This document shows, piece by piece, positions 1,977 through 48,429 of a stretch of DNA of 64,000 bases. Origin of the DNA: Tubulanus polymorphus (Eukaryota; Nemertea; Palaeonemertea; Tubulaniformes; Tubulanidae); assembly GCF_964204645.1 (NCBI RefSeq), contig NC_134026.1, positions 1 to 64,000 of the forward strand, written 5' to 3'. A program made the translations under genes and the position numbers. Each line of letters begins with the position of its first letter. Within the stretch, counting starts at the first letter, position 1. Below the pieces are notes generated by a model, which was given only the letters and a program-made list of their open reading frames with translations, made no database searches and was not told where the DNA came from.

Positions 1977-2745
1977 GTAGTTACTCTGGCCGTAAAATTG
2001 AATGAACTTTTCTCTCAAATGAATCAATTAATAATCATGGACCCAGGAGCCTAAAAATTCTTCTCAAAGTTCATCAATAAAGAGCTAATTTTGATGACGT
2101 TAGACCGAGTACTTGGCACGCCACCTAGTGAGATAGCTGGTGTTGCAGTTCCCAATTCACAGATCAATAATTCAGTGAAATACGATGAGAGAGGAGGGAG
2201 AACATCATCTGATTCTCTCAGTAAATAGAGACAACCCTTCAGCAGTTTAATTAATATAATTAAAGCCATCTAAACACAGGAAACTAACAGCAGGTTCACT
2301 TTAATAAATATATATTACTGAACGTTTTTTTCTTCATACTTGTTATTATTCAATAGTGTAATTACAATAAGGTCAGGTCAATGAAACTGAATTATTATGT
2401 CAAGATGTTCGTGTTCCTTCTACACTGTTTAGAGGTCATACACTCAAATTCCAGCATTTCATTTGACTTTAGAGTCAACTGATAATTCTTCCACGCTGGC
2501 AGAAAATAAATCATCATTAAAATGATTATATCATATTACATCATATCATATCAATCATATCATAGACTAATTCATTGAACTGTCAGGTTTTATATTATCA
2601 CAATGACTAGAGCCGTTTGTGTAAATCAAATATATACAGAAATATTGAATACTTCATCCATAAAAATCAAACATTTTTCATACACGAGAAATATATGGAA
2701 AGTAAATCAGTTGAGTAAATGATTTTCAAAACATCTGTTGTTTCG
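1977..2745. other. Unannotated sequence
   Basis: AT-rich with no gene that can be supported. Short near-repeats of ATCATATCATAT lie around 2525-2565. The minus frame at 2051-2269 has no splice context or recognisable domain. Confidence 0.45.
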
Positions 2746-2834
2746 TCGGCTGCCTGGTCGGCTGCCTGGTCGGCTGCCTGGTCGGCTGCCTGGTCGGCTG
2801 CCTGGTCGGCTGCCTGGTCGGCTGTCTGGTCGAC
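2746..2834. repeat. 12-bp tandem repeat
   Basis: About seven copies of CGGCTGCCTGGT in tandem, with diverged edges (CGGCTGTCTGGT, CGACTAGCTGGT) out to about 2850. The unit is a multiple of three, which produces the (AADQ)n open frame on the minus strand. I treat that frame as non-coding. Confidence 0.9.
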
Positions 2835-3821
2835 TAGCTGGTCAGCTGGCGGTCGATATTGTTCAATGAATCTTACATAATGTATTCTATACGAGATATC
2901 ACTGATTAAACTATTTATAGCTTTATGTTTTAATACAATTATCATTATATAATAAAACTAGAGCTAGTAACACGCAATCCTCCACCGAACACTCTACAAA
3001 TATGGCTCTGCTAGCCATTTTGGAAGATCTACATGACTCAAAACAAAAACAGCACAACCTCCTACCAAGTTATGAGAAAATTGGTCAAAAACTGTTAATA
3101 GTTGAGCGCTGGAAACTGCACGCAGGTCTATACTACACAAAGTGTAACGAATTCATTTCCCAAACATCTCCCAGGAAATCTATTGAATTCCAAATAATTC
3201 TCCAATTTACCTGTCGTCCTGCGGGAACCACGAATGAAGTCGTACTCACCAAAACTTAGAAAAGTCGGTCATATTCCAAGTGTTAACGAAAGACAGCCTC
3301 TCCATGAGTATTAGATCAATCTATGTAAGGTTTGTTAATCTTCTAACTTTCTTAATACTGAAAGTAAAGAAATTAGAAACATATGTTGAATATTGAGGGG
3401 ATTAATGTAAATAATAATGCTTGTGAAGATCTGTGCCAAGGTTGAGAGAGGAGAGAGAGAGAGAGAGAAAATGGCTGCTACGTTTCCAAAGTCATAAAAA
3501 GCCTCATAAATAAAACCTATAAGCAGCTTTCCTACCGCTGGGTGGCCTTGACATTACACAGACAGTCAACCGATAACCGCAGAGAGTCTGGATTATAGAG
3601 ATTAAATATCCGATATTCACAAATAAAATATTTAACAAAGTCATTTACTAATTTTTTACCATTTACTAATTTGAAAAGCGGATTAACCGGATTAGTGATT
3701 CTAAAGTGATTATCCTTCTGTGCATCGCACAAGTTTGTATTGGTAACATTAAGGAGGGAAAGAGGCCTGATTAGTATCCATAATATTTGAGTGTTAGAGA
3801 ATGAGACCAAATTAGAGGAGA

Positions 3822-42586: not shown

Positions 42587-45500
42587 TTAGAATTTCAGAA
42601 TTCTGTTTTGACGTTGTTCCGCATCTAAACTGCGGCGTCTGTTATACAGCGCCGGACGAATTAGATAACTGAGACCTTTATCAACATCGTCTTGTAATGA
42701 AATACATGCAGCTACGATTCGACCTATTGACATTCCTCCCTGTTCGTAAGCGTCTATCTGTTGAATAGCGTTTTGAGCAGCTCTGATATCTCCGTAAATC
42801 TCGTATCTATTCTTGTATAAGATGAAAAGTTCCTCGGCGACTTTCACGACGAACGATCCACAATCACCTGACGTGCACGAAATCAAAGACTTGATGAATC
42901 CGATAATTTTAAACGCTATCTCCGTTTCGGAACACGCCATGAACGCTTCGTATAAATCTTTTAAACCGAATCCAATATTTCTGAGGCCTTCGTCAAACTG
43001 CGAATACAACACGAGACATTCAGATTATTATTGAAAATGTCTTACGGGATTAAAATCGAAGTGGTTTAATTTTTCTTACCTTCCCGGCGGTAAATGAAGT
43101 AAACGCGTTATGGAAATCTGCGACAGTTTTTTCACCGTCTTTGACGCATTCGGTGATATTCATTCTAGTCTCCTCTCCTAAACCTCGGAGCATTCCCTTA
43201 AATAACTGTTCCCAATTCGCATCCTTCGAGGAGCTACTACTTATTAAATCTATAACAACAAATGTAGTGTCCAAGTGACGAGCTTGTTTCATTTCGGGAC
43301 AACTTTCAGGGGCGGGCCTTTGAAATTTGGAAGGCAGAGTCCAGTTGTTTAGTTAACACATTCTGAATTTGCTTTCACCTCTTTTCGAACCTGATGACTT
43401 GTATCCCTTTGGAAAAATAATGGCTATTGAGCTAATGTTATGCGACCAAAAACATGGGAACTTTGGATAAGTGTCGCATATCCTTCGAATTGATACCACG
43501 ATTAGAATCGCTCACTTCACTGGCCATGGATAGATTTACGAAAAATACACTGTATTTTTCTAATGGATAATGATGAAACTAAAGAAAGAATTGACTCAGA
43601 TAGAACATACCTGTGTGTATGACGCTTGTGAATTCTCGATTTACTAAATATCTAACTTCATATTGACCAGCTGGTAAAAACATGCGCATATAAACCTTAC
43701 CCTGAGGTACCGGTTTACTGAGCGGGTTCTGCCCTCCTTGAACATATCTGTTAGAAAATCATAATCACGAATTAGCAATTAATCCTCAAACTGAATTGAT
43801 TAAGTGGTTGTTATTACCTGAAGTCGATGTATTTATCATTAGAAGCAGATTTCGGGTAGATTCCGATCCAGTCGTTAGCTGTCGCCTCGTCTTCAGGTAC
43901 CGACCATATAGCTGATGTGCTACCACCAAATCCTATTGTTTTATTAGATACTTTCAGAGTTCTAGTTTCAGTCATACTTTCTATCTAAATAATGTGTTGA
44001 AAAAGAAGGCGTACATACTGAAAGTGCCCCAACGTTAGGGGGGATCTAGAATTATATACGTACGAGTGAAATGAGGGGAGGGGGATGTAGCTAGGAAAAG
44101 ACGACTTAAAGCATTTGAGGACTACTTAAAACCTCGTAGGCCCCTACGTTACTTTAACTGTAAAACTGAATGGATTCATAAAAACGTATTCAAGAAAGAT
44201 ATTGAGGCCATAAAAAAGTAGTTGAAATATAGATTGAAGATGATGCGCCGCAAACCTTGTCACCGGCAGTTACAACATGAGCGGTCCACCAACCAGCTTC
44301 ATTCTGTGCCACGAACGGTAAAGACACGATTGAACCACTCGCAGGACGCCCTACAGATTCCCAATCTTCATATTTAGCTCCTTTTTCCAATTGCCAAGTG
44401 TGCCACAAACTAGACGAATAAAAGATAAAATAGTCCAACATCAGTATTCCTGAAGATGACAATAGTTGAGACTTTGAATAAACTGATATATGTTGGAAAC
44501 TTATCGGACTTAATTTTTCATTCTTAATCTGGGACTTTTTATATCATCGTCACAACACGGACTCAGGAATATTTCGTAAATGGTTATTAAACGGATAAGA
44601 TATTTTCAGTTTGTGTTAACCTCAGAGGTTCAAAATAATTGTCTTTTCAAAATACATATTACAGAGATATTTGTCTTACTTTCCATCGCCACCGACAGTG
44701 AATAATTCTATGCCACGATGTATGTTATACCCGACTGTAAAACCGTTCACATTAGAAGCTGGTTTCGGTGTCTACAAAAATATGAGATGGTTACGTATAT
44801 CCGGAAAGCTTATCGCTCACAACATTATGACATAAACACGAAATACGACATAGATTTAATCGTTATGGGTTTGATGTCGCTGAACCGAGCTATCAAAACA
44901 CATAAACACAAATCTGTTTCGTATTTTGGGTTTATGTCGCGCGCTAAGCTTCACAAAACAGGAAACAAGCTTTCCGCAATTAGGCGTTTTATTGGAACGA
45001 TGCAAATGTCCTGACTGATTGATTCAATTCTCCAAGACTTATCTTTTCGTACAATCATTAAAATATCTGAATCTATAATCAATCTAATATAGTTTTCTAA
45101 TGCGGATTTCATTCAGGCTACAATGAATTATGAAATGAGTGGAATTAAAATCGATACCTTGGCGTGCATTTTGTACCAAACAGACCAGGTACAGTATCCC
45201 CATGGATTCGGTACAGCGTCGCACGTCGTCTGCCAAACTTTATGCAATAAACCGTCTTTACCGTACGCAAATACTTCACTTCTTCCGTTAAAGAAACTCT
45301 TGTCCATCGCATGAGCTATCGGTCGAATAGTGGGCACCATTGCTGCCTGACCCCAGCCTTAAGGAAATCGTAAGATATGAATGGAATAATGTTGGGATGA
45401 ACTATGGCGACGTTTTAGGCGCTGTACTAGATGGAACTTATGCTCAAAGAGATCTGATGATAGACGTAATATAGGTTTACTGACTATCAAATATATACAT

Positions 45501-47070
45501 ATAATAACATAGATACATTTTATTGACGGTTATTGAGATATTGAAGCTTTTTGAACAAACATTCCGTGAAATACATTGATTAGATTAAATAAAGCTGTAT
45601 TTTTTTGTTCCTCTGAAGATGAGGTTTAGTTTTAACCTCGAAATTGTCAGGAAATCTGTTTCTACAAATCTAACTGTGGGTTTTTTATTCGTTATCAGTG
45701 AAATAAATTTTATTGTCAGAAAACTAGACGGAAAAATAGTAAATCCATATTTTGTTGCATTTTAACTGATAACATTAATATCTCAGTGTATTTCGACGAT
45801 TTAGTGATAAGCTCTGTTTGTTTTATCTACGCATCGCCATGTATTTTCATTTGATAAATTGTGGCTGTTTCGCGGTCTACTTACTCAATGTTCTCCACGA
45901 AGCCCAACTTCCATCTTTCCATTGCCAGGTTCTGTAAACTTTAGTGTCAGTAAATATAGCGAACGCTTCGAATGCTCCCGAGTACGGGTTGAGAACCAGA
46001 CTGACGTCACTGAGTAACTGGCCACCGATATCTAACCATCTAGTATAGACCTTACCAAACCTGTGGGTAGTTTGCATTAGAGTGGATTTCGAATGCTGCG
46101 TCCGGGCGAATACGTAGAGGATTTGTTGACGTTTTTGGACGAACAGTCGATCTCTACCGACTAGCTTAGCATTTGAGTCGAACGGTAGATAACCAGTTTG
46201 AACTAATCTTCTGAACTTATCAAATCCGCCGCAACCAGAAGCCTTCACTGAAATAGAAATACAAAAATCGATCATACGTTATTTTTCAACATGGATTTAT
46301 AATGAGAAAGAGTTCAAACTGTAATCAAATTATTTCTATTTAGAAAAATAGGTTTATCCTTTTATGATTATGAGATTCTTATTTAGCGTTATTCGTACTA
46401 CAGTCAACCTCGGTTAATCCGTTAAACTGTATAAGTGCTTATTCCGTATAAACAAATTGGTCCCATTTTTCAGTAACGTTATTCCCTTTAAAATTCTGTA
46501 TCAAATCGGGACTATAAAATTAGGTCAACCAAATTTAGATTTGAACTTTGGCACGGCAGATGCTAAAATGAAAGTAAATACGCAAAAACCAGGATTTCGT
46601 AAAATAGAAGCCATTTTACGTGAAATGAAATGACGGTTTTTAAAAAACTTAAAGATTAGAAAGTAATTTTCTTAAAGCGTATTTGTTTCTTACAATCTAT
46701 TCAATAATGTGTGCGTCATGATAATAAAAGTGAATAATCATTTACCAGATTGAGTACTGACGTAAACCTGACCATCTGAAAACTGCGCATAAACGTGAGT
46801 CGTATTGTCAATATCTTGTGACGTCACTGCATTAGAAACTGGAAATAACGTCGCAGTCGGATTGTCGAATATTGTCCAAGCGCTCCATTTCATATCACTG
46901 GCGGCCGTGGCGCATTTTACACCGGTCGAATCGGCGTAAAAAGCGAGTTGATGAAATCCGGGATTCAAAAGATCTATCGTTACGTCCAGTCTCCTATCAA
47001 CCGAGGACGCATCGATCCGTACTAACAGCGCACCGGAAAACAGTAACAGAAACGTGACAACTTCCATCAT
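42587..47070 (-). CDS. Secreted PLL-like beta-propeller protein with DWIGIYP domain and unknown helical C-terminus, 9 exons
   Basis: Exons on the minus strand: 47070-46746, 46247-45885, 45342-45158, 44771-44680, 44409-44256, 43984-43818, 43747-43611, 43249-43080 and 42997-42587; phases agree throughout, giving 667 residues. The start has an in-frame upstream TGA. Residues 1-22 form a signal peptide (EVVTFLLLFSGALLVRIDAS). Residues about 25-370 repeat a blade pattern with W-x-x-W ends: WSAWTIFDNP, FAIFTDTKVYRTWQWKDG, EVFAYGKDGLLHKVWQ and ELFTVGGDGNLWHTWQLEKG. This is how PLL/DUF346-type propeller lectins look. Residues about 377-475 contain NDWIGIYPKSASNDKYIDFR and LPAGQYEVRYLVN, like SKICH or related beta-sandwich domains. 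Residues 476-667 are mainly helical with a few Cys (MACSETE, SCTSGDCGS) and match no family I know. Acceptors of exons 3 and 8 were chosen by phase among near alternatives. Sugar binding is inferred. Confidence 0.85.
44805..44955. mobile_element. MITE-like inverted repeat in intron 3 of the secreted-protein gene
   Basis: Imperfect inverted ends: AAGCTTATCGC and GACATAAACACGAAATACGA on the left against TCGTATTTTGGGTTTATGTC and GCGCTAAGCTT on the right. The whole is about 150 bases. It creates the false plus ORF 44718-45014. Confidence 0.5.
45613..45643 (+). ncRNA. Second hammerhead-like core motif
   Basis: CTGAAGA, one extra T, a six-base-pair stem (GAGGTT with AACCTC, seven-base loop), then GAAA. 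Same layout as the motif at 34699 but with a different stem sequence, so the pairing is preserved while the bases differ. It lies in intron 2 of the secreted-protein gene, antisense to it. Flanking stems I and III are not evident. Confidence 0.25.
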
Positions 47071-47507: not shown

Positions 47508-47609
47508 GAGAACATTTCAAAGCGCAAAAACAATTTTCAGAGCGCAAAAACAATTTTCAAAGCGCAAAAACAATTTTCAAAGCGCAAAAACAATTTTCAA
47601 AGCGCAAAA
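47508..47609. repeat. 20-bp tandem repeat, about 5 copies
   Basis: Copies of AGCGCAAAAACAATTTTCAA, upstream of the secreted-protein gene start. Confidence 0.92.
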
Positions 47610-48429
47610 AACAAGAAGCATGCATTGCAAAAATGGTATAGTTTGATTTTTGCGCGTTGAAATTTGTTTTTTTGCATGTTGGAATTTGTTTTAGTGCGTT
47701 CTCGTGCGGGATGATGTTGATGAAAAACATTGATATAGGTAACGTAAAAAAGTCAGCAAGATATCTAAAAGATCGGTCGCAAATTCTGCTAGTATTCTCA
47801 AATTCAAAACAGCATGAAACATCATGTCAAAAATACAAACTCCAAGCTGCAAAATGAGAACATTTTTTTTGAGATTTTGTCGTTAATTCAAATTCATATG
47901 ATTTTTTCCAATTGTTTCTATCCCTATTGATCAAAAATACAGAAGGTATTTATATATTTTTGCTATTACAGAGAAGTTCCAGGGTCATGTTGTGACCATG
48001 TCGACCAATAAAAAGGGTATATATTCTTGATTTAGGGCGGAAAGGCATATCAGCAAAATTTTTGAAATTTTACTATCATTTTTAGAGCTTTCTGAGCGTC
48101 TCTGAGAGGCATTCAGTCAAGAAACATAGGTTATATATTTAGGAAAAATATCTATTGTGTATCTCAGGTGGTTACAAATTTTGATACAGAGAAAAAATAA
48201 AAATGCGCTTTAATATTCCGACCGTGTCGGGCGACACGGTCTAAATCCGCACCTGAGTTCACATTAAAAAAAAACACATTTAAAACTGGTCTCGTTATGG
48301 TATAATTGGAATTTGATTTTATCGACGTATAACTATAGTAAGAAATGATTTTATTTGTGTATGAAATGAAAATGAGAACCACGTGAAAGTATCGACAGCC
48401 GGTTATTGTGACCTAGTGATAATATTGAA

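Follow-up and report, generated by a model that had tools for sequence, protein, structure and literature searches.

The DNA analysed here, referred to as the window, comprises bases 1–64,000 of a 31.9 Mb contig from the genome (268 Mb in total) of the nemertean Tubulanus polymorphus. One locus on its minus strand raises the question of whether nine putative exons, encoding parts that resemble a bacterial lectin propeller, a SKICH-like sandwich and a region of no recognised family, form a real gene, and of what its protein would do.

Gene structure and genomic surroundings

When spliced, the nine exons give a coding sequence of 2019 bases including the stop codon, which is translated into 672 residues without internal stop (Table 1). 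All eight introns are bounded by GT...AG. A leave-one-exon-out codon test ranked the spliced frame first of three in each of the nine exons, with slim margins for exon 1 (0.220 vs 0.194) and exon 7 (0.061 vs 0.059). The spliced frame is open throughout; at least one stop interrupts each of the 18 alternative exon frames. GC content is 0.40–0.49 in the exons and 0.33 in the introns. The locus is thereby confirmed as a genuine eukaryote gene of nine exons, read from the minus strand. The nine exons in phase claimed in a preliminary description of the locus stand, but its length of 667 residues does not. An artefact or chance frame is ruled out by the result of the frame test (9/9 exons).

The splice junctions are linked by evidence of different kinds. 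Those of exons 2–5 are bridged by PLL homology (phmmer against PDB sequences) and that of exons 6–7 by the SKICH-like match in Pfam; the pairs 5–6, 7–8 and 8–9 rely solely on reading frame and splice signals. Exon 3 has the weakest acceptor of the eight. A polyadenylation signal (AATAAA/ATTAAA) lies 105 nt downstream of the stop codon; introns 2, 3 and 8 contain three, two and one of them, respectively, and introns 1 and 4–7 none.

The open frames nearby include matches to pantothenate kinase (Fumble, 69 bits), to fatty-acid elongase in three frames (ELO; two above the cut-off and one just below) and, below the cut-off, to the N-terminal domain of alanine racemase, the last of which may represent PLPBP. 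Bacterial contamination is ruled out by the introns and by these eukaryote-type neighbours. A family expansion is likewise discarded, as the genome yielded a single copy of each part of the protein at the search thresholds applied; the sole other place with a propeller is on contig C8 (E 0.027). The beginning of the contig is rich in minisatellites, which would be in keeping with a position close to the end of a chromosome.

Table 1. Exons of the gene and other features (window positions unless another sequence is named).
Feature	Position	Strand	Content
Exon 1	46746..47070	-	Signal peptide (aa 1-21, putative cleavage after A21), blade 1, part of blade 2 (hand layout)
Exon 2	45885..46247	-	Remainder of blade 2, blades 3 and 4
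Exon 3	45158..45357	-	Blade 5, including C275 and C285
Exon 4	44680..44771	-	Link and beginning of blade 6
Exon 5	44256..44409	-	Remainder of blade 6 (W329, W332, W343) and truncated blade 7; weak donor GTTTGC
Exon 6	43818..43984	-	DWIGIYP sandwich, first half; ATG at fourth codon
Exon 7	43611..43747	-	DWIGIYP sandwich, second half (YEVRYLVN)
Exon 8	43080..43249	-	Beginning of C-terminal region without recognised family
Exon 9	42587..42997	-	Bulk of C-terminal region and stop codon; single occurrence in genome
Minisatellites	1-35000		Numerous units (9-60 bp); longest arrays ~1.4 kb
Dispersed repeat in intron 1	46396-46506		~110 bp; at least 40 other genome matches, 80-95% identity
Tandem repeat	47515-47610		20-bp unit, ~450 bp upstream of start codon
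SKICH places L022-L024	contig C8, 10590264-10596833		Three in tandem, with long open frames; L022 and L024 resemble INPP5K-type inositol phosphatases
Archaeal module L014	Thalassarchaeaceae MAG, 2433-3668		One WIGIYP module joined to EF hands

The probable secretion signal

The signal peptide that had been proposed is probable. Residues 1–19 constitute the best 19-residue hydropathy window of the protein (1.97), and small residues permit cleavage after A21. Judged from hydropathy, residues 1–21 thus resemble a signal peptide and the protein is probably secreted. After residue 25 no window exceeds 1.15, so that no further membrane span is expected.

The N-terminal propeller and its candidate sugar sites

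The N-terminal part of the protein was compared with PDB sequences by phmmer. Eight distinct Photorhabdus lectin sequences were matched (E 3e-21 to 3e-14), which supports its assignment, made on homology, as a PLL-type propeller. Weak matches were BP39L (0.023) and an agarase (0.43), the latter on the sandwich. As the eight best Photorhabdus lectin alignments all start at residue 141 or later, blades 1 and 2 lack PDB support. No propeller family was found in Pfam, NCBIfam or PHROGs, the Pfam copy possibly lacking a PLL/DUF346 model. Two plasmid records, from Embleya and Paenibacillus, matched the propeller by tblastn (E 2e-4, about 26% identity), the Embleya match spanning residues 70–366 (26.5% identity, E 2e-4).

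According to the excerpts of PMC7778903, PLL, PLL2–5 and PHL of Photorhabdus are seven-bladed propeller lectins (DUF346/PropLec7A). Like them, the nemertean protein has W-motif blade repeats, seven when laid out by hand, and the propeller is probably seven-bladed. Unlike them, it is encoded by a multi-exon gene, carries a signal peptide and joins the propeller to two additional parts; its blade starts are 51–61 residues apart with a final step of 40, blade 7 being truncated and blades 1–3 divergent in the hand layout.

A further difference concerns the sugar sites. In PLL3, the hydrophobic sites involve Trp 203/218 and 251/265 and the polar site W111 (excerpts of PMC6943638 and PMC12203525). 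These positions were transferred by hand through a PLL2 alignment, assuming a shift of two residues. By this mapping, the hydrophobic-site pair is complete in one of the seven blades (blade 6, W329/W343) and not kept in five, blade 7 not being assignable; in blade 4 it is half kept (Y213/W226, with Tyr for one Trp). Blades 4, 5 and 6 retain the polar-site Trp (W216, W271 and W332; 3/7), also by hand mapping. With most of the sugar-site tryptophans replaced, sugar binding is less sure than first implied: as far as these residues can tell, it would be reduced, and is doubtful.

The same residues bear on an alternative that we consider unlikely, though deserving serious attention, namely that the propeller has lost its sugar binding and that the protein would serve as a structural or protein-binding component of mucus, of an adhesive or of the extracellular matrix. 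The residues at the W0 position, K, Y, L, Y, H and W in blades 1–6 (blade 7 not assignable by the hand mapping), are what would be expected from mostly replaced sugar sites; the tryptophans that remain in blades 4–6, as mapped by hand, argue for the opposite.

The DWIGIYP sandwich

The claim that the second part is a SKICH-like sandwich is supported, though its Pfam match lies under the family cut-off: 17.2 bits with the whole protein and 21.2 bits with the domain alone, the gathering score of PF17751 being 23.4 bits. A profile built from eight bacterial modules gave the sandwich 33.9 bits; the maximum in 1000 shuffles in which both motif blocks were kept was 27.5 bits. It also scored higher with the bacterial modules than did three SKICH domains of the same genome, a yardstick drawn from the six SKICH places of that genome and including one domain shortened by an exon end. 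When WIGIYP and YEVRYL were masked, the scores dropped to 0.6 (prokaryote), -0.9 (bacterial) and 1.9 (SKICH profile). Masking thus removes nearly all of the score, and neither branch is preferred outside the motif blocks. Compared with the PDB, alignment A3, which includes the nemertean sandwich, gave the SKICH domain of NDP52 first (E 0.03) and translocon-associated protein delta at 0.1; with alignment A1 the hits were chiefly heavy chains of antibodies, starting at E 0.04.

SKICH proteins are cytosolic and carry a coiled coil or an inositol 5-phosphatase domain. The nemertean protein differs from TAX1BP1, NDP52/CALCOCO2 and INPP5K in its signal-peptide-like N-terminus, in having no Pfam match to an inositol phosphatase family along its 672 residues, in its sub-cut-off score and in its better fit to bacterial modules. 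A Sulfurovum MAG, itself found via the DWIGIYP motif, has 14 places that match the SKICH profile, and the four loci read encode predicted secreted proteins, mostly with tandem modules. SKICH-like sandwiches are not only cytosolic, which corrects the preliminary description of them as normally belonging to cytosolic proteins. The modules of the four loci (L013, and L027, L029 and L030, the last three found via the SKICH profile) share with the nemertean sandwich the DWIGIYP...YEVR pattern and, by eye, a secretion or lipoprotein signal; one module is 37% identical to it over 73 residues, having been found by the same motif. Unlike the nemertean gene, these loci are bacterial and show, by eye, neither a PLL propeller nor the C-terminal region in the adjacent frames read. 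Among 298 sampled genomes of the phylum of Sulfurovum, four, the MAG included, contain a match at E 0.01, and two exceed the cut-off.

Searches of other collections gave no confirmed relatives. Alignment A1 yielded 75 stretches in viral contigs, none confirmed, and a reshaped WIG-YP pattern had no match there. Pattern searches based on the sandwich together with the C-terminal part yielded one stretch in viral contigs and 19 in genome contigs, none confirmed, and tblastn yielded none in plasmids. Three phage tape-measure records at E 0.9 in tblastn with the same query are taken as chance.

Could the propeller and the sandwich have come from bacteria by horizontal transfer, with introns and the C-terminal part gained later? 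The propeller's relatives in the PDB come from bacteria, bacterial modules give the sandwich a good score, and each of the two has one occurrence in the genome at the search thresholds applied. The comparisons made here were with bacterial, plasmid, viral and PDB sequences, so animal relatives may exist unseen; the two plasmid matches share only about 26% identity with the propeller, and PLL homologues are reported in fungi in the excerpts of PMC10481521. We regard such a transfer as improbable. Slightly less credit still is due to two adjacent genes, a secreted PLL-like propeller (exons 1–5) and a second protein, made up of sandwich and C-terminal region and starting at the ATG of exon 6, that would be cytosolic like SKICH proteins: this exon opens with I-E-S-M and the exon 5 donor is the weakest of the eight, but the junction fits in frame and phase, the exon 6 acceptor is fair (3% of the AG sites of the region score as high), intron 5 is merely 271 nt long without polyA signal, and the sandwich outscores the three SKICH domains of its own genome used for comparison on bacterial modules.

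The C-terminal region

The C-terminal part had been described as about 190 helical residues of no known family. The latter holds: for residues 485–672 no significant match was obtained in Pfam, NCBIfam (whole protein), PHROGs, PADLOC or PDB sequences, the best rows being E 0.22 (Pfam) and 0.27 (PHROGs), and the region occurs once in the genome at the threshold used. A helical nature is favoured by a slight lean in composition and by an all-helix AlphaFold2 model of exon 9 alone, but the model is of low confidence (pLDDT 42.1, pTM 0.25) and neither is proof. No internal repeat was detected in this part, 160 of 200 shuffles being equally good. Five of the nine cysteines of the protein lie here (514, 558, 577, 582 and 634), and this odd number would leave room for a disulphide between two molecules.

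Proposed role

Taking these results together, we favour, with a probability of about 0.45, the reading that the gene occurs in single copy and encodes a soluble, secreted ~73 kDa protein that would recognise microbial, mucus or cell-surface glycans. This explanation draws on what the analysis shows: the gene structure, the homology of the propeller, that of the sandwich to bacterial modules and, by hydropathy, no later membrane span. From these we infer secretion, ligand, oligomeric state and role, and the surface recognition or defence suggested earlier has the same standing. The PLL-type propeller, probably seven-bladed, would be the recognition head, probably binding a glycan or another surface ligand via the sites with kept aromatics (blades 4–6). 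The DWIGIYP sandwich would be an extracellular SKICH-fold module acting as a spacer or a second binding surface, and the cysteine-bearing, probably helical C-terminal region may dimerise the protein or carry its effector or its contact with a partner.

Among the titles and opening lines of abstracts listed from the open-licence literature we found no animal protein of the same architecture, which says little. More speculatively, and at long odds, the gene could be the founder of a new secreted eukaryote, probably animal, family, which would use a bacterial-type PLL propeller, together with an extracellular SKICH-fold module that perhaps originated in bacteria, to bring a new helical effector domain to the surfaces of microbes or hosts. 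Should the architecture prove conserved, it would represent a kind of secreted lectin-like protein that has so far gone unannotated. The SKICH fold has been studied as a cytosolic autophagy or phosphatase domain; the data suggest a secreted branch shared with bacteria and archaea, which would bear on the origin of the SKICH domain.
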